The position numbers were made by a program, and so were the translations under genes. Below the pieces are notes generated by a model. The model worked only from the letters and a program-made list of their open reading frames with translations, searched no databases and was not told the DNA's origin. Positions 1,580 to 22,514 of a DNA stretch of 22,713 bases are shown here, piece after piece. This DNA comes from a virus: positions 1-22,713 of the IMG/VR virus record IMGVR_UViG_3300027801_000178. One strand, given 5' to 3'. The first letter of the stretch is position 1; each line of letters starts with the position of its first letter.

Positions 1580-3205
1580 ATGATATCGGAAATAAACAGT
1601 ATTTGGATTGTTGGAGGGGGTATTGCAGGCACTTCAACGGCTTGTGTTTTAAAACAAACATTTCCCCATAAAGATATAAGACTTATAGAAGGTAAAAGTA
1701 TCCCAACCGTAGGAGTCGGAGAAAGTACATTAAGTCAAATTAATAGTTTCTTACAATTATTAAATATTCAAGATAAAGATTTTATGAAGGAGTGTGATGC
1801 TTCTTATAAATTAAGTATTAGATTTGAAAATTGGAAAACAGAAAATAGTGGTAGCTTTCACTATCCTTTTGGTAGTCCATACTATAGTGAAAGTGTTTTA
1901 AATTATAATTATTGGTATTATAAAAAGTTTTTAAAACCAGAAACACCCAATTCAGATTTTGCTGATTGTATGTTTCCACATATGGCATTAATTAATGAAA
2001 ATAAAGTTTGTCCCAAAGAAGGTGTATTTCCAAGTTGGAATATGAAAAATGATGCTGCGTATCATTTTGATGCAAATAAATTAAGTGACCTTTTAAAAAA
2101 GAAATTTAAAGAATTAGGTGGAAGAATACTTGTAGAGGATATTGTTAATATTCAAAGAAATGAAGATGGTAGTATTAAACAATTAGATTTACATACAAGC
2201 AATTCAATAAAAGCTGATTTGTATATTGATTGTACAGGTTTTAAATCTTTATTATTAGATAAAACAATGAAAGAACCCTTTGAAAGTTATGAAGATATGC
2301 TTCCTAACAATTCAGCTTGGGCAACTAAATTACCTTATGTAGATAAAGAAAAAGAATTAGTATGTTACACAAATTGTAAAGCTGTAGAAAATGGTTGGAT
2401 TTGGAATATTCCGTTATGGTCAAGAATGGGTACAGGATATGTTTATTCAGATAAATATATTTCCGATGATGATGCTCTTAAACAATTTCAAAATCATTTA
2501 GGTACAGAAGATTTAGAATTTAAAAAATTAGATATGCGAATAGGTGTGCATAAAAGACTTTGGGTCAAAAATGTATGTGCTATTGGTTTATCGGCAGGTT
2601 TTATAGAACCTTTAGAAAGCAATGGTTTATTAACAATACACACATTTTTAATGAAACTTGTTCCTATTCTTAAAAAGAAAATAGTTAATGAGTTTGCTAT
2701 ACAACATTTCAATTTAGCTTGTAGAAGGATGTTTAGAGGTTTTGCTGAATTTGTAGCAATGCACTATGCGTTATCAGATAGAACTGATACTGAATACTGG
2801 AAAGATATTCAAAAAAGAAATTATCATATAGAAGAAAAATTCATTGATGAAAAATCAGATTTTCAATTAGCTTTTAGAAATAAAATGGAAGAACACTACT
2901 GGCACACTACAGGTGGTTTTCCTTGTATCGCAACAGGAATGGATTGGTTTCCAACAACTTTTGAAGAAATTAGATATGCAGAAGCAAATTTTAGTATTGA
3001 ACATTATGAAAAGGAATGGAAACATATACTGGAAAATTTAGAAAAGAGGAAAAAAGACTTTAAAAAGTTGGCTAGTGACTGCCCAACTCTTTACGACTAT
3101 CTAAATAAAAACATTTACAATGTAGAACAGTCTGATAAACAATACATGACAATTGTCGAAAACCCACAATTTGAAACTAAACTCGTTTCAGAAAACGCTA
3201 GGTAA
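1580..3205 (+). CDS. Flavin-dependent halogenase (tryptophan-halogenase family)
   Basis: The 541-aa protein is close in length to PrnA-type FADH2-dependent halogenases (about 540 aa), which use FADH2, O2 and halide to halogenate aromatic substrates. Visible elements are the FAD-binding GGGIAG (residues 12-17), GVGES (45-49), Lys77 in a YKLSIRFENW context matching the catalytic Lys79 of PrnA, the family signature WxWxIP (Trp273, Trp275, Pro278), and FIEPLESNG (341-349) with Glu346 at the position of the PrnA catalytic Glu. Asn348 replaces the Thr of PrnA near the halide site. Trp441 (YWHTTGG) may correspond to the substrate-stacking Trp of PrnA. No flavin reductase is seen, so reduced flavin would come from the host. 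The gene lies in the tail operon. A homologous viral enzyme, VirX1 of cyanophage Syn10, is described as an iodinating halogenase; substrate and halide here are unknown. Correspondences are by eye. Confidence 0.92.
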   Translation: MISEINSIWIVGGGIAGTSTACVLKQTFPHKDIRLIEGKSIPTVGVGESTLSQINSFLQLLNIQDKDFMKECDASYKLSIRFENWKTENSGSFHYPFGSPYYSESVLNYNYWYYKKFLKPETPNSDFADCMFPHMALINENKVCPKEGVFPSWNMKNDAAYHFDANKLSDLLKKKFKELGGRILVEDIVNIQRNEDGSIKQLDLHTSNSIKADLYIDCTGFKSLLLDKTMKEPFESYEDMLPNNSAWATKLPYVDKEKELVCYTNCKAVENGWIWNIPLWSRMGTGYVYSDKYISDDDALKQFQNHLGTEDLEFKKLDMRIGVHKRLWVKNVCAIGLSAGFIEPLESNGLLTIHTFLMKLVPILKKKIVNEFAIQHFNLACRRMFRGFAEFVAMHYALSDRTDTEYWKDIQKRNYHIEEKFIDEKSDFQLAFRNKMEEHYWHTTGGFPCIATGMDWFPTTFEEIRYAEANFSIEHYEKEWKHILENLEKRKKDFKKLASDCPTLYDYLNKNIYNVEQSDKQYMTIVENPQFETKLVSENAR

Positions 3206-15854: not shown

Positions 15855-16049
15855 CTAGACACACATACACCCAATAAAGGCACTACCATCTTTTAATAAA
15901 TGTTTATTTATCTCTTCTTTATATATAGTTAATTTTTCTCTCATTATATCACACAAATCAAAGCAGTTTTTAAAAACTTCTCCATCAACCATTTCTTTTG
16001 TAACTTCAATTAAATAATACAGACCCTCATGTAAAATAATTAGATCCAT
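15855..16049 (-). CDS. Small hypothetical protein, 64 aa, partner of the SNF2 helicase
   Basis: The ATG (complement of 16047-16049) overlaps the end of the helicase gene by 10 bases and is preceded by the purine box AGGGA. The protein is largely helical and charged (YYLIEVTKEMVDGEVFKNCF, MREKLTIYKEEINKHLLKD) and ends in GSAFIGCMCV, with four Cys in all. I do not recognise a family. The overlap suggests it is translated with the helicase and may act with it. It ends facing the endolysin gene, leaving 34 bases with no convincing terminator. Confidence 0.6.
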   Translation of the reverse strand: MDLIILHEGLYYLIEVTKEMVDGEVFKNCFDLCDIMREKLTIYKEEINKHLLKDGSAFIGCMCV

Positions 16050-17473: not shown

Positions 17474-17478
17474 AAATA

Positions 17479-17495
17479 ATTTCTTCTTTCTAGTT
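17479..17495 (-). promoter_or_regulatory. 17-nt translation leader of the SNF2 gene
   Basis: Read on the minus strand, AACTAGAAAGAAGAAAT precedes the helicase ATG by five bases. The identical 17 bases occur on the + strand at 17943-17959 before another gene. The purine run AGAAAGAAG probably serves as ribosome site. Confidence 0.65.
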
Positions 17496-17521
17496 GACAA
17501 TTATATAAATCACTGTATAAG
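17494..17521 (+). promoter_or_regulatory. Rightward sigma70 promoter of the replication module
   Basis: TTGACA (17494-17499, perfect -35) and TATAAG (17516-17521) are 16 bases apart on the + strand. The expected start near 17528 would give a leader of about 19 bases before the ATG at 17547. It overlaps the leftward promoter. Confidence 0.7.
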
Positions 17522-17530
17522 AACTGTCAA
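17500..17530 (-). promoter_or_regulatory. Leftward sigma70 promoter of the SNF2 helicase
   Basis: On the minus strand TTGACA (17530-17525) is followed after 17 bases by TATATA (17507-17502), or after 19 by a perfect TATAAT (17505-17500). The expected start near 17493-17495 places the 17-nt purine leader at the 5' end of the message. Confidence 0.68.
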
Positions 17531-17546
17531 GTAAAAAGAAATTAGA

Positions 17547-17948
17547 ATGAAAAATAAAATATTTGAATTATATAAACCCAATTCTTTAGAAGAATTTTTA
17601 ACGTTTTATAAAAATAATCCTGAAGAAAAATTTGTCTATGTTGCACAAGAACCGCCTAGACATATTAATATTATAAGTGCATCCGATTTTGGATATTTAG
17701 TTTTTTGTTTACCTAATAGTGGACCGGAATCGCAAGCTGTTTATTCTACTTCTCCATTCGTGAGAAAAATGAAAAAAAATTTACAAAATATAAGACCACA
17801 AGATTATTTGTTAGCAATAGGGGATCCAATTATAATTGGGATTTGCAATATTGCTATAAGTGATGTAACCAATGGAAAGTTTAATGTTTTAAAATGGGAT
17901 AAAAATGGTAGTCGATACTACCCATTAGAAATAGACTTTTATAACTAG
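17547..17948 (+). CDS. Hypothetical early protein, 133 aa
   Basis: This is the first gene rightward of the divergent promoters, with an ATG about 19 bases after the predicted start site. The sequence (MKNKIFELYKPNSLEEFLTF) is mixed alpha/beta, with hydrophobic strands (KFVYVAQEPPRHINIISASD, YLVFCLPNSG at about 50-60) and IIIGICNIAISDV (about 99-111). There is no clear catalytic, zinc or helix-turn-helix pattern, and I do not recognise its family. Its position as a leader gene of the replication module suggests an early function such as host takeover or regulation, but nothing in the sequence proves that. Confidence 0.6.
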   Translation: MKNKIFELYKPNSLEEFLTFYKNNPEEKFVYVAQEPPRHINIISASDFGYLVFCLPNSGPESQAVYSTSPFVRKMKKNLQNIRPQDYLLAIGDPIIIGICNIAISDVTNGKFNVLKWDKNGSRYYPLEIDFYN

Positions 17949-17959
17949 AAAGAAGAAAT
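17943..17959 (+). promoter_or_regulatory. 17-nt translation leader of the 187-aa gene
   Basis: AACTAGAAAGAAGAAAT lies three bases before the ATG at 17963 and is identical to the minus-strand leader of the SNF2 gene (17495-17479). It also contains the stop (TAG 17946-17948) of the preceding gene. Confidence 0.65.
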
Positions 17960-17962
17960 AAT

Positions 17963-18526
17963 ATGAGTAATGATATGACCAACAGAATGCTAAAAGATTC
18001 TAAAGACCTTTTAGATGATATAGAAATAACAGATATAGCTTCGGAGTGTATTAAGCTCAAACAAAAAGAAGATGAGATTGCACAAATAGAAGAACAACTT
18101 AAAAATAAAAAAGCAGAGGCTGATGACATCAGCTCTCGTGTAATTCCCGAATTATTAGCAGAACAAGGTTTATCAGAAATTAAACTTTCAGATGGATCTA
18201 AGGTAGCTGTTAAAAAAGAATTCAGAGCAACTGTTCCCAAAGACGATTTAAAAAGGGAAGCTGCTCTACAATGGCTTCGAGATCAAGGGCTGGGAGATAT
18301 TATTAAAAACAATGTCTCTGTATCTTTTGGTAAAGGAGAAGATGACAAGGCGGAGCAATTGCTTCGACTTGCAGCTGATAATGGTTTTGAACCGCAACAG
18401 AAATCTGATGTGGCTTGGAATACTTTATCAGCTCTATATCAGGAGCGTGTTGAGGCCGGTCTCGACATGCCTTCTGAAAGCTTTAGTCTTTGGATTAAAG
18501 ATAAAACTAAAATAACCCGGAAATAA
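17963..18526 (+). CDS. Coiled-coil phage protein, 187 aa, replication module
   Basis: Residues about 25-60 form a charged coiled coil (CIKLKQKEDEIAQIEEQLKN). After this comes a small globular part: VIPELLAEQGLSEIKLSDGS at about 60-79 and VAVKKEFRATVPKD at about 81-94. It ends with helices (LLRLAADNGFEPQQKSDVAW, then WNTLSALYQERVEAGL). I recall similar proteins of unknown function directly before ssDNA-binding or replication genes in phages; a Gam-like or DNA-end-binding role is only a guess. The start is fixed by the purine leader and the 14-base spacing to the previous stop. Codon use near the end is somewhat richer in G+C than the genes on either side. Confidence 0.65.
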   Translation: MSNDMTNRMLKDSKDLLDDIEITDIASECIKLKQKEDEIAQIEEQLKNKKAEADDISSRVIPELLAEQGLSEIKLSDGSKVAVKKEFRATVPKDDLKREAALQWLRDQGLGDIIKNNVSVSFGKGEDDKAEQLLRLAADNGFEPQQKSDVAWNTLSALYQERVEAGLDMPSESFSLWIKDKTKITRK

Positions 18527-18546: not shown

Positions 18547-19317
18547 ATGAGTAAAGAAGTAATGAATAAAGAATCTGGATCTGTAGCCTTATTTGGCAAT
18601 GATTTAGACCAAGGTTTTGAAAATGTAACGCAAGCAGATACTTCGTTACCTTATGTCAGAATCTTAGGACAATTATCAGCTGAAGTAAATGAAGGTGATG
18701 GTAAATACATAAATGGTGCTAAACCAAGTATGATTTATAATAATATTACCAACGAAATCTTTGATGGTAAAGAGGGTATCAAAGTAATCTCTTGTTATTA
18801 TAAGAGAAACTTTCCAGAAAAATCAGATAAAGGAGATGGAATGGCTACAACTGTAGCAGTTCATCAACCAAATAGTCCGATTGTTCAAACAGGTAAAAGA
18901 GAAGGTTCTAAAATTAGATTACCGAATGGTAACTATTTAGAAGAAACTGCCTATTACTATGTTTTAATGGAAACAAAAGCAGGTGGAATGACACCAGCTT
19001 TAATTACTATGAAATCTTCACAGCTTAGTGTTAGTAAAAAATGGCTTGCCATGATGAAACTAATAAAAATAGCTGATGGTAAAGGTGGATTTGGTAGACC
19101 TCCAATGCATGGAGTTATGTATAACCTGTCTTCCGTACTACAAAAGAACGAAAAAGGTTCTTGGTATGGTTGGTCTGTTACACAAGACAGAATTATGGGA
19201 CAAGGAGATGAGGCTTTATATGATGAAGCTAAACAACTCCAATCTACGTTCTCTAAAGAAAACGTGCAAACAAAAGTAGATGTGAAAGAGAAAGCTAACG
19301 ATAGTACTCCGTACTAA
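18547..19317 (+). CDS. Candidate single-stranded DNA-binding protein, 256 aa
   Basis: AAGGA lies about 9 bases upstream of the ATG. The central part (about residues 30-215) is beta-rich with many aromatic and basic residues (LPYVRILGQLSAEVNEG, VISCYYKRNFPEKSD, ETAYYYVLMETKAGG, SSQLSVSKKWLAMMKLIKI, GSWYGWSVTQDR). The C-terminus is polar and mixed-charge (KENVQTKVDVKEKANDSTPY) rather than strongly acidic as in classic phage ssDNA-binding proteins. Position immediately before a primase and SF1 helicase, plus the exposed-aromatic pattern, suggest ssDNA binding. I cannot see a diagnostic signature and the call is inference. It is followed by a stable hairpin that probably marks the end of a transcript segment. 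Confidence 0.6.
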   Translation: MSKEVMNKESGSVALFGNDLDQGFENVTQADTSLPYVRILGQLSAEVNEGDGKYINGAKPSMIYNNITNEIFDGKEGIKVISCYYKRNFPEKSDKGDGMATTVAVHQPNSPIVQTGKREGSKIRLPNGNYLEETAYYYVLMETKAGGMTPALITMKSSQLSVSKKWLAMMKLIKIADGKGGFGRPPMHGVMYNLSSVLQKNEKGSWYGWSVTQDRIMGQGDEALYDEAKQLQSTFSKENVQTKVDVKEKANDSTPY

Positions 19318-19373: not shown

Positions 19374-20891
19374 ATGAATAAATTCAAACAAATATTTAGC
19401 GGATTAACAATAGCATATGGACAATATCAGCCCGGTGACAGAGGAGAAAATGGTAAGCAACAAGGTAAAGCCTTTATTGTTCGTAAAACCGTTACCGACG
19501 ATCTCTGGACCAATCACCTTGCAGGAAAAGGAGCAGCTCTTGGGATTATCCCTATCACAGAAAATAATGATTGTAGGTGGGGCTGTATTGATATTGACGA
19601 ATATGACTTTAATCACGCTAGCCTCGTTAAAAGTATTAGGGATCGTAAACTCCCTTTAGTAGTTTGCCGATCTAAATCCGGCGGAGCACACGTATTTTTA
19701 TTTACTAAAGAAAATATCTCAGCATCATTGATGCAATCAAAATTAAAAAAAATGGCGATCGTTTTGGGCTTCGAAGGTTCAGAAATATTTCCTAAACAAA
19801 CAGAAATTTTAGTGGAACGTGGTGACACTGGAAACTTTTTAAATTTACCTTACCACAATCAAATGAAAGGACTACGTTATGCTATCAACGATACTGGCGC
19901 CGGCTGTACACTTGAGGAATTTTATAAGCTCTATGATATTTATGCTTGTACAAAAGAAGCCGTTGAAAAAATTAAAATTGAAGAAGAAAAAATAGAAGAA
20001 GCATTTCCTGGAGGACCCCCTTGCTTAAACAAATTGGCATCAATAGGTTTTGGTGAGGGTTCCAGAAATAATGCATTATTTAATATAGCAGTTTATTATA
20101 AACAATCTAATCCGGACACATGGGAAGATAAAATTGTAGAAGCCAATTCAAAACATATGACTCCCGCTCTAAGTAATAGTGAAGTTCAACAATTAATTAA
20201 ATCAGTTAACAGAAAAGGTTATGATAAATATAGATGTAAAGATGAACCTATTAATTCTGTTTGTCAATCTGGTTTGTGTAGAACTAAAAGATTCGGTGTG
20301 GGTTTTGGGGAAGAAGAAATGCCATTACTTGGTAGTTTAACTAAGTATAGATCAACACCACCACAATGGTTTTTAGATGTAGATAAAACTAGAATAGAAT
20401 TAAAATCAGAACAACTTTATAATCCAGGTATGTTTGCTTTAGCTTGTTTAGACCAAGCCAATAAAATTGTACCTGTACCCAAACCTAGAGATTGGAAACA
20501 ACATTTTTTAAAACCAATGATGGGAAACTTACAAGAAGTAGAACCATTAGAATCTTTAGATCCTATTAATGAACTTACAGGACTTCTACAAGATTGGACT
20601 ACCAATAGACAGTCCGCTAGAACTTTAGATGATATTTTTAACAAACTTCCTTTTACAGAAAAAGAATTTACTTATTTTAGAATGGAAGACTTTTATTCAT
20701 TTTGTAAAAAAAATAATTGGGAAATGGATAAAACTAAAACAGGTAACTTAATTAAAAGACTTGAAGGAATTTTTGTAGAAGAAACAAGAATGACTATTAA
20801 GAAACAACAACCAAGATTAGTTAAGATTAATACAATGAAAAAAATAGAGGCTTCTGTTTCTAAAGTTGCATACCAACAGGAGGATTTTTAA
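19374..20891 (+). CDS. Archaeo-eukaryotic-type (AEP) DNA primase, 505 aa
   Basis: The N-terminal domain shows AEP hallmarks: WGCIDIDEYD (residues 69-78) with the metal-binding pair Asp73/Asp75, and SKSGGAHVFLF (100-110) with the SGGxH nucleotide-binding motif, His106. PKQTEI and GNFLNLPYHN follow further on. KGAALGIIPI (52-61) is typical of the phage/plasmid and TOTE-type primase group. A second region holds Cys288, Cys297 and Cys302 (YRCKDEPI...CQSGLCR), a likely zinc knuckle of the primase C-terminal type, then a helical tail. It would make primers for replication, and some relatives also polymerise. There is no fused helicase domain; the SF1 helicase two genes on may supply unwinding. Its stop overlaps the next start (TAATG). 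Confidence 0.85.
   Translation: MNKFKQIFSGLTIAYGQYQPGDRGENGKQQGKAFIVRKTVTDDLWTNHLAGKGAALGIIPITENNDCRWGCIDIDEYDFNHASLVKSIRDRKLPLVVCRSKSGGAHVFLFTKENISASLMQSKLKKMAIVLGFEGSEIFPKQTEILVERGDTGNFLNLPYHNQMKGLRYAINDTGAGCTLEEFYKLYDIYACTKEAVEKIKIEEEKIEEAFPGGPPCLNKLASIGFGEGSRNNALFNIAVYYKQSNPDTWEDKIVEANSKHMTPALSNSEVQQLIKSVNRKGYDKYRCKDEPINSVCQSGLCRTKRFGVGFGEEEMPLLGSLTKYRSTPPQWFLDVDKTRIELKSEQLYNPGMFALACLDQANKIVPVPKPRDWKQHFLKPMMGNLQEVEPLESLDPINELTGLLQDWTTNRQSARTLDDIFNKLPFTEKEFTYFRMEDFYSFCKKNNWEMDKTKTGNLIKRLEGIFVEETRMTIKKQQPRLVKINTMKKIEASVSKVAYQQEDF
20878..20883 (+). promoter_or_regulatory. Strong Shine-Dalgarno site before the 67-aa gene
   Basis: A perfect AGGAGG lies seven bases before the ATG at 20891 and inside the 3' end of the primase gene. 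It is the best ribosome site noticed in the window, and it serves the small gene rather than the helicase at 21006. Confidence 0.75.
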
Positions 20892-21094
20892 TGAAAGTAG
20901 GAATTAATTGGCATCTTAGATTCAGAGAAGAAATTAAATATCTTAAAGAAGAGTTAGAACTAACCCAAATATGGTTAGATAGAGCAGAAAAACAATTGGA
21001 AAAATATGAAAACAATAATACTGGGGCCGCCGGGAACGGGAAAAACAACAACGTTGTTAGACTTAGTCGACGAGTTCATCCAACAAGGGATTAG
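20891..21094 (+). CDS. Small coiled-coil protein overlapping the helicase start, 67 aa
   Basis: The start is set by AGGAGG seven bases upstream and by the TAATG overlap with the primase stop. Residues 1-42 form a charged amphipathic helix (MKVGINWHLRFREEIKYLKE, ELTQIWLDRAEKQLEKYENN). The last 27 residues are the alternate frame of the helicase Walker A region (NTGAAGNGKNNNV) and read as low-complexity and basic. The 89-base overlap means ribosomes leaving the ORF pass through the helicase start at 21006. It may be a real small replication cofactor, a translation-coupling leader, or both; the function is unknown. Confidence 0.6.
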   Translation: MKVGINWHLRFREEIKYLKEELELTQIWLDRAEKQLEKYENNNTGAAGNGKNNNVVRLSRRVHPTRD

Positions 21095-22514
21095 ACCTAA
21101 ACAAATAGGTTACTTTTCTTTTACTAAGAAAGCTGCAAAGGAAGCAGCAGAGAGAGCTGCGGAAAAATTTAACTTAGATATAGACAATGATCTAACTAAT
21201 TTTAGAACTTTACACTCATTAGCTTTTAGAAATTTAGGAATGACTAAAGAGAAAATGATGAAGACAGAAGACTATAAAGAATTTGGGCAGAAATGTGGCA
21301 TCCCTATTAAGACAGCTAGTTATTCATCCGACGATGGTACATTTAATTCTGATAATGAATACCTAACAATTATAAATACAGCTAGAGTAAAACGTATGGA
21401 CTTGATGGAGTATTATGATTCAAGACAAAATATATTAGATATAGAAAGAGGAACTTTATTTTTATTAGCAGAAGAATTAGAAAAATTTAAAAAAGAAAAA
21501 GGTTTAAAAGATTTTACAGATTTACTAGAAGATTTTATAGCTGAGAAAGTTAAACCAGGATTTGAAGTATTATTTATAGATGAAGCCCAAGATTTATCTT
21601 TACTACAATGGGATATGGTAAGAAGTATTTGGGCCAACGCGAAGAAAACTTATATAGCCGGTGATGATGATCAAGCAATATTTAAATGGGCCGGAGCAGA
21701 TGTAGATCACTTCATAGCTTTAAAAGAAGAAGTTAATGACATAAAAGTATTAGATCAATCATATCGTATTCCAGGTGGTCCTATCCATGAGTTATCACAA
21801 AGAATAATAAACAAAGTACAGAATAGATTTGAAAAAGAATATAAACCTAGAGATGAGATTGGTATTTTAAAAAGATATTCGGACATTACCCAGGTTGATA
21901 TGAGTGAAGGTAATTGGTTAGTTTTATCTTCAGCTAATTATTTTTTAGACGACGCAAAGGACCTTTGCGAGATTCAAGGATGGTATTATCAATATAAAGG
22001 TATGAACTCTGTATCTTTAAAACTTTTACTAGCTTTAAATAATTGGGAAGCATGGCGTAAAGGTGCGTTCTTAAATCATTTGGAGATTAAAAATATGTAT
22101 GAGTATCTTGGATCAAATGTTTTAGTAGGCTTCCAGAAGGGTAAAACTTTAAATTCGGATGCGAAGTATACACTAAAAGAATGCCAAGCGCAATATGGAT
22201 TAACAACAGATAAAGTTTGGTACGATTCTTTTGAGGGCTTAGATAACATGACGGAAACCTACATTCGTAACATGAGGGCGAATGGAGAAGCTATAAATAA
22301 AAATCCTCGTATAAAAATGTCAACCATACATGGAGCGAAAGGCGGAGAAGCTGATAAAGTTTTATTACTCCAGGACATAACCGGTGCGGCTATCGAAACG
22401 TTTAGTCATGACCCAGATGAATTACATAGATTATTTTATACTGGCGCGACGAGAGCGAAGCGTGAATTGCATGTGTTAGATCCTAAAAACTTTGATCGAG
22501 CTTATATAATATGA
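21006..22514 (+). CDS. UvrD/Rep-like SF1 DNA helicase, 502 aa
   Basis: Complete SF1A motif set: I, GPPGTGKTT (residues 7-15); Ia, FSFTKKAAKEAAERA; II, FIDEAQD (DEAQD 192-196); III, AGDDDQAIFKWAGA (GDDDQ 219-223); IV, VLDQSYRIP; V, STIHGAKGGEADKVLL; VI, YTGATRAKREL (478-488). This is an ATP-driven 3'-5'-type DNA unwinding protein. At 502 aa it is shorter than bacterial UvrD (about 720 aa), so the 1B/2B insert regions are reduced. ATG 21006 lies within the preceding 67-aa ORF with only a weak purine site, so translation is probably coupled. Together with the AEP primase it probably forms the replication fork machinery; recombination or repair is the alternative. The stop overlaps the next gene (ATGA). 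Confidence 0.92.
   Translation: MKTIILGPPGTGKTTTLLDLVDEFIQQGIRPKQIGYFSFTKKAAKEAAERAAEKFNLDIDNDLTNFRTLHSLAFRNLGMTKEKMMKTEDYKEFGQKCGIPIKTASYSSDDGTFNSDNEYLTIINTARVKRMDLMEYYDSRQNILDIERGTLFLLAEELEKFKKEKGLKDFTDLLEDFIAEKVKPGFEVLFIDEAQDLSLLQWDMVRSIWANAKKTYIAGDDDQAIFKWAGADVDHFIALKEEVNDIKVLDQSYRIPGGPIHELSQRIINKVQNRFEKEYKPRDEIGILKRYSDITQVDMSEGNWLVLSSANYFLDDAKDLCEIQGWYYQYKGMNSVSLKLLLALNNWEAWRKGAFLNHLEIKNMYEYLGSNVLVGFQKGKTLNSDAKYTLKECQAQYGLTTDKVWYDSFEGLDNMTETYIRNMRANGEAINKNPRIKMSTIHGAKGGEADKVLLLQDITGAAIETFSHDPDELHRLFYTGATRAKRELHVLDPKNFDRAYII

Follow-up and report, generated by a model that had tools for sequence, protein, structure and literature searches.

Divergent promoters packed into a short intergenic region are familiar from phage switches of the lambda PR/PRM type, in which operators and repressors do the switching. 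A related arrangement is the Pc/Pr pair of pLS20, where the -35 and -10 boxes of two divergent promoters overlie one another, the Pr start lies 6 bp upstream of the Pc -35 box and, as described for overlapping promoters, RNA polymerase binds only one of the two at a time (PMC4207663). One promoter of this pair is very strong and the other very weak, and the system also has a regulator (Rco), operators and DNA looping (PMC4207663). According to the same work, overlapping promoters act as a switch only when their basal strengths are unequal and a regulator acts differently on each (PMC4207663). Bacterial bidirectional promoters with a symmetric -10 element, in which two divergent starts arise from one promoter stretch, are summarised in PMC10268837, where, after Warman et al. 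2021, the two starts are defined as lying 7-25 bp from one another. The sigma70 consensus of S. meliloti is reported as CTTGAC-N17-18-CTATAT (PMC4696191).

We compared these systems with a divergent junction of 73 bp (17474-17546) in a viral DNA stretch of 22,713 nucleotides from IMG/VR, hereafter the window. For a 3.4-kb query from the window the nearest annotated records were the genome 023Pt_psg01 (psg01), with a DNA identity of ~75% over half of the query, and Pelagibacter phage HTVC027P. The window helicase is 76.5% identical to that of psg01, 57.3% to that of HTVC027P and 45% to that of HTVC023P, which makes the window an HTVC023P-type pelagiphage; given this relationship to known pelagiphages of SAR11, its host is presumably SAR11. 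To the left of the junction, the helicase is followed by a 64-aa ORF for which the Pfam/PHROG search returned no family, and in psg01 a small gene occupies the equivalent place. To the right are Pam3 gp32-, gp33- and gp34-like genes, a primase and a UvrD-type helicase (Table 1), and in psg01 the series continues with DNA polymerase A. As far as annotation goes, both sides of the junction appear to serve related helicase and replication functions. Elsewhere in the window, among structural genes, we observed a gene for a flavin-dependent tryptophan halogenase of 541 aa (1580-3205, + strand; Pfam PF04820, E 1.4e-110); the word "halogenase" is absent from the main text of the large HTVC023P-type survey (PMC9599517).

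Table 1. Predicted promoter elements and neighbouring genes at the divergent junction (positions in the window)
Feature	Position	Strand	Basis or remark
Rightward -35 box TTGACA	17494..17499	+	Contains predicted leftward start; TTGAC invariant in 38 distinct 37-bp cores
Rightward -10 box TATAAG, spacer 16	17516..17521	+	Position conserved, element least conserved; mostly TATATA in relatives
Leftward -35 box TTGACA	17530-17525	-	Contains predicted rightward start; GTCAA invariant in 38 distinct 37-bp cores
Leftward -10 box TATATA, spacer 17	17507-17502	-	Sequence and conservation in relatives
Alternative leftward -10 TATAAT, spacer 19	17505-17500	-	Sequence
Predicted rightward start	~17528-17529	+	Inferred from -10 position
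Predicted leftward start	~17494-17496	-	Inferred from -10 position
Leftward leader, A-rich	17474..17493	-	ATG-to-box distance mostly 17-21 bp in relatives
Rightward leader, A-rich	17531..17546	+	Length variable in relatives
SNF2-type helicase, 477 aa	16040..17473	-	Pfam SNF2-rel_dom 6e-22, Helicase_C 3e-14; PHROG 62
64-aa ORF after helicase, probable second leftward gene	15855..16049	-	ORF list
First rightward gene, Pam3 gp32-like, unknown function	17547..17948	+	Pfam PF23992 1.8e-25
Pam3 gp33-like (DUF7307) gene	17963..18526	+	PF23984 3.4e-31
Pam3 gp34-like gene	18547..19317	+	PF23977 5e-59
Primase	19374..20891	+	PHROG 21866 3e-90; Pfam AEP-TOTE 2.5e-13
UvrD-type helicase	21006..22514	+	PF00580 4e-31

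An earlier note on this DNA, made from the sequence alone, had described the middle of the junction as two interlocked promoters, and every coordinate, strand and spacer that it gave (16 on one strand; 17 or 19 on the other) was verified. A recognisable -35 and -10 stand at an allowed spacer on each strand, 16 and 17 bp, and all four boxes lie within a core of 37 bp, where the elements of one promoter overlap those of the other. With starts placed ~7 nt past each -10, our recomputed positions agree with the further claim that each predicted start falls in the -35 box of the other promoter: they lie ~34 bp apart, each within the TTGACA of the opposite strand. The leaders match as well, 17477-17491 being 87% complementary to 17530-17544, and the self-complementarity of the whole 73-bp intergenic region was equalled in 9 of 2000 dinucleotide shuffles. 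The junction can thus be read as a nearly symmetric cassette of leader, predicted promoter, predicted promoter and leader. A leader of 20 bp, AACTAGAAAGAAGAAATAAT (17943-17962), also precedes the second rightward gene, and is 95% identical to the helicase leader on the opposite strand (17476-17495). The A-rich leader recurs without a GGAGG Shine-Dalgarno sequence, and the corresponding junction of the HTVC023P clade has AAGGAGG.

The locus resembles pLS20 Pc/Pr in the overlap of its divergent boxes and differs from it in having two consensus -35 boxes, a nearly symmetric layout and, by annotation and Pfam/PHROG matches, no regulator at the junction. Like PR/PRM, it places divergent phage promoters between closely spaced genes, although no operator/repressor system was seen in the window. 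The distance between the predicted starts and the separate -10 and -35 boxes of each promoter place the window outside the type with a symmetric, shared -10 (PMC10268837), and, unlike that type, both window promoters would drive protein-coding operons. The host group and S. meliloti are both alphaproteobacteria, and the phage boxes agree with the reported S. meliloti consensus in the TTGAC of the -35, the TATAT-type -10 and a nearly identical spacing, whereas in the phage promoters TTGAC and TATAT mostly lack the preceding C and the rightward spacer falls about one base under the N17-18 range.

Conservation of both boxes and of their spacing among related phages had been proposed as a check, and alignment of related intergenic regions shows it in many relatives. 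Relatives of the window clade, drawn from IMG/VR via the helicase and gp34-like genes, yielded 53 distinct cores, with a span of 37 bp in 45, 36 bp in five and 38 bp in three. The outer TTGAC and GTCAA are invariant in the 38 distinct 37-bp cores; across the same 38 cores the information content is 1.1-1.4 bits per position for the leftward TATATA and lower, ~0.3-1.2 bits, for the rightward -10, and between the rightward -10 and the right box the sequence is almost unconstrained. In clade A the rightward -10 is variable, reading GGTAAA or GTTAAA at some loci. Leaders outside the core vary among relatives, most on the right side. A scan of IMG/VR with the 37-bp pattern found at least 119 stretches; among the matches listed, all 117 exact ones examined adjoin the first rightward gene (gp1) and/or the helicase (106 flanked by both, and eight and three with one neighbour). 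A second group, the L203 relatives, which include a member (L640) whose helicase is 64% identical to that of the window, is also interlocked, with spans of 33-38 bp. Together, the distinct sequences from three helicase searches comprise 94 cores in two clades at the same helicase/replication junction, with spans of 33-38 bp, mostly 36-38. In this set the spacers are mostly 16 or 17 bp on both strands and the span tracks them, from 16/17 at span 37 to 17/17 at span 38: all 24 cores of span 38 have TATA at spacer 17 in either direction, the 53 cores of span 37 have it at rightward spacer 16 in 33 and at leftward spacer 17 in 40, and 10 of the 12 cores of span 36 have it at rightward spacer 16. 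Some relatives carry extra, apparently coding sequence between the helicase and the junction (L186, L193), and in one of this kind (L043), with an insert of ~200 bp, the interlocked core is retained beyond it.

A different geometry occupies the same junction in HTVC027P-like phages, where TTTACT, 16 bp, TATATA, 17 bp and AGTCAA follow one another. Of 36 distinct sequences, 35 have the resulting total length of 51 bp and 31 have the 16/17 spacers. Here the promoters are nested, both using one self-complementary -10, TATATA, and this form fits the 7-25 bp definition of bidirectional promoters cited in PMC10268837, its predicted starts lying ~19 bp apart. In a helicase tree of 59 sequences, whose root depends on a distant outgroup, the nested form makes up a single clade with a support of 100/100 within the interlocked ones, and on this placement the interlock was most likely replaced once. 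The HTVC023P clade carries TTTGCA-N16-TATAT in 29 of 53 distinct regions and a leftward TTTGA-N17-TTAA in 28, which suggests promoters that are probably, though not firmly, back-to-back. Across these geometries each strand keeps a -35 and a TATA separated by 16 or 17 bp, while the distance between the two -35 boxes changes, from 37 to 51 bp overall. The earlier note had expected both box pairs to persist in related phages that keep both gene sets, and this holds in part: HTVC027P- and HTVC023P-like phages retain the helicase/primase junction and overlapping geometries, but not the interlocked pair. Since the spacers are kept while the span changes, what is conserved is two overlapping sigma70-type promoters rather than the 37-bp interlock itself.

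The genomes point to the host as the source of the polymerase that would read these promoters. The window is itself a fragment; in the complete relatives psg01, HTVC027P and HTVC023P neither a T7-type RNA polymerase (PF00940) nor a sigma region 4 was detected, although the T7 control and the positive controls for sigma were found, and the HTVC027P transcriptome paper describes RNAP as specific to the other phage studied (PMC12753301). Host (SAR11) RNA polymerase is therefore the likely reader of both. A gene annotated as "RNA polymerase sigma-G factor" in phage DSL-LC04 (OR003939.1 31404-31661), which encodes 85 aa between primase and UvrD helicase, matched no Pfam family, sigma or other, and was set aside. 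In SAR11 upstream regions (two 400-kb stretches), TTGAC-to-TATA spacings between 10 and 25 occurred only at 15-18, with nine hits; after removal of duplicates the signal is modest and made up of few independent sites, with seven distinct ones at 15-18 against one at 22, where ~0.36 are expected per spacing. An exact search for TTGACA-N16-18-TATAAT, which says nothing on weaker promoters, gave zero in three SAR11 genomes. The gene-level expression classes reported from RNA-seq of HTVC027P include gp33 and gp34 as highly expressed, early to middle, genes (PMC12753301). Both are preceded by TTGACA and then TATAGG at ~15-17 bp, which fits the promoter model. A repeated TTGACA...TATAGGAT-like sequence occurs in HTVC027P at 388, 17395(-), 17718(-), 19224 and 19774, upstream of gp02, gp33, gp34 and others, and these are probably early or middle promoters.

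In our view the 37-bp core probably consists of two divergent sigma70-type promoters that overlap, are read by the host RNA polymerase and share initiations without forming a bistable switch. Each promoter would consist of a TTGACA -35 and a TATA-type -10, with a spacer of 16 bp rightward and 17 bp leftward. The footprint of RNA polymerase is too large for two polymerases to occupy promoters that overlap to this extent. With predicted starts ~34 bp apart and each on the -35 of the other, two polymerases could not sit together; the earlier claim to this effect is supported by the geometry, and, provided that both promoters are active, exclusivity is nearly certain. A polymerase at one promoter would thus block the opposite one until it had cleared, and over many rounds the strengths of the two promoters would determine how initiations are apportioned to the helicase operon on the left and the replication operon on the right. 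In such a scheme the junction would be a compact bidirectional promoter under common regulation, with competition between its two directions built in. The arrangement is ordinary in kind, and unusual in its conservation and change of geometry.

Within this explanation, it is quite possible, if somewhat short of an even chance, that the overlap results purely from genome compactness, with two spacer constraints that interlock to fix the spacing and an exclusivity of no consequence; this is a sub-case that differs only on whether the competition matters. Each base between the boxes belongs to a spacer or to a -10, so any indel inside the interlock shifts one promoter, and spacing constraint alone can freeze the interlock without selection for exclusivity. 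In agreement with this, spans change by 1 bp together with the 16/17 spacers, and it is the leaders outside the core that vary. Packing is not forced everywhere, however, since a second divergent junction in psg01 (16853/17094) extends over ~240 bp with its TTGAC boxes well separated, and overlap at the helicase/replication junction persists through a change of geometry. That selection keeps the exclusivity of the polymerases itself, as a means of setting how many helicase transcripts are made per replication transcript with no regulator involved, with the geometry rebuilt and the spacers kept, seems doubtful to us. We also considered a genome terminus, as related records start at or next to the junction; psg01 is circular and starts at the ATG of the first gene, so that the record start is probably a numbering convention.

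The earlier note had gone further and proposed an either/or switch, in which the exclusivity of the polymerase commits each phage genome to the helicase or the replication side. The geometry does make simultaneous binding very unlikely, and in pLS20 RNA polymerase itself has been called part of the switch (PMC4207663). The requirement cited above for unequal promoters and a regulator nonetheless weighs against the proposal: both -35 boxes are the consensus TTGACA, the rightward -10 being the less conserved of the two, and the junction showed neither a regulator nor a feedback gene. The note had itself seen no repressor gene nearby, and this held among the annotated neighbours and Pfam/PHROG matches, several small proteins there having no family. 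Moreover, the helicase and replication sides look functionally linked rather than alternative, sister clades retain the helicase/primase junction without the interlock, and the spacing is explicable by the spacers. We regard a switch as improbable; with two consensus -35 boxes, no regulator seen and apparent replication functions on both sides, competition would instead divide initiations in a fixed ratio.

It is also decidedly improbable that TTGACA-N25-TGTCAA is primarily an operator, an inverted-repeat site for a dimeric regulator whose likeness to promoters is secondary. Two invariant, identical half-sites at a nearly fixed distance, about three helical turns apart, and the self-complementarity of the entire intergenic region are what such a site would offer. 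Against it, spans of 33-38 bp change the helical phase between the half-sites, and the sister clade has TTTACT and AGTCAA as its halves, separated by 39 bp, with the TATA spacers unchanged at 16/17; constant spacers with a changing distance between the -35 boxes are as promoters predict, and not as the operator of a dimer. The TTGACA/TGTCAA pair occurs once in psg01, once in the window and not in HTVC027P, so that these sites do not make up a regulon; nor was a regulator found.

Chance, whereby AT-rich DNA yields promoter-like boxes everywhere, is a negligible explanation, as sigma70-like sites are indeed common by chance (31 found against 45 expected in the scanned part of the window) but invariant -35 boxes and spacers kept across many distinct sequences rule it out, and TTGACA is depleted elsewhere in the window. 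The window holds five TTGACA sites against 15.7 expected, with five or more in 99 of 100 shuffles, and psg01 holds 34 against 50 expected, as if stray promoters were avoided; the window contains a single TTGACA..TGTCAA pair separated by 18-32 bp, against 0.035 expected per shuffled window. Genome-wide, TTGAC-N16-19-TATA pairs are not far above random (7 against 3.7 in psg01, 8 against 2.8 in HTVC027P). A strict sigma70 scan of the window, requiring T at position 6 of the -10, listed neither promoter, because the -10 boxes are TATAAG and TATATA.

HTVC023P-type pelagiphages are regarded as some of the most abundant marine viruses (PMC9599517), and the main text of two pelagiphage papers mentions no promoter. 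The present comparison provides a first conservation-based promoter model for these phages, of TTGAC, 16-17 bp and TATA, together with a set of naturally occurring geometries at a single junction, by which it becomes testable whether overlap is selected or a by-product of compaction. While the kind of arrangement is known, what appears to be new is that it is so conserved, and that a single junction has changed between geometries, in a very abundant phage group. On the sequence evidence, the original observation is confirmed and its reading as promoters well supported, and its reading as a switch is not. The junction looks like a compact, shared on-signal for the DNA-replication genes rather than a proven switch.
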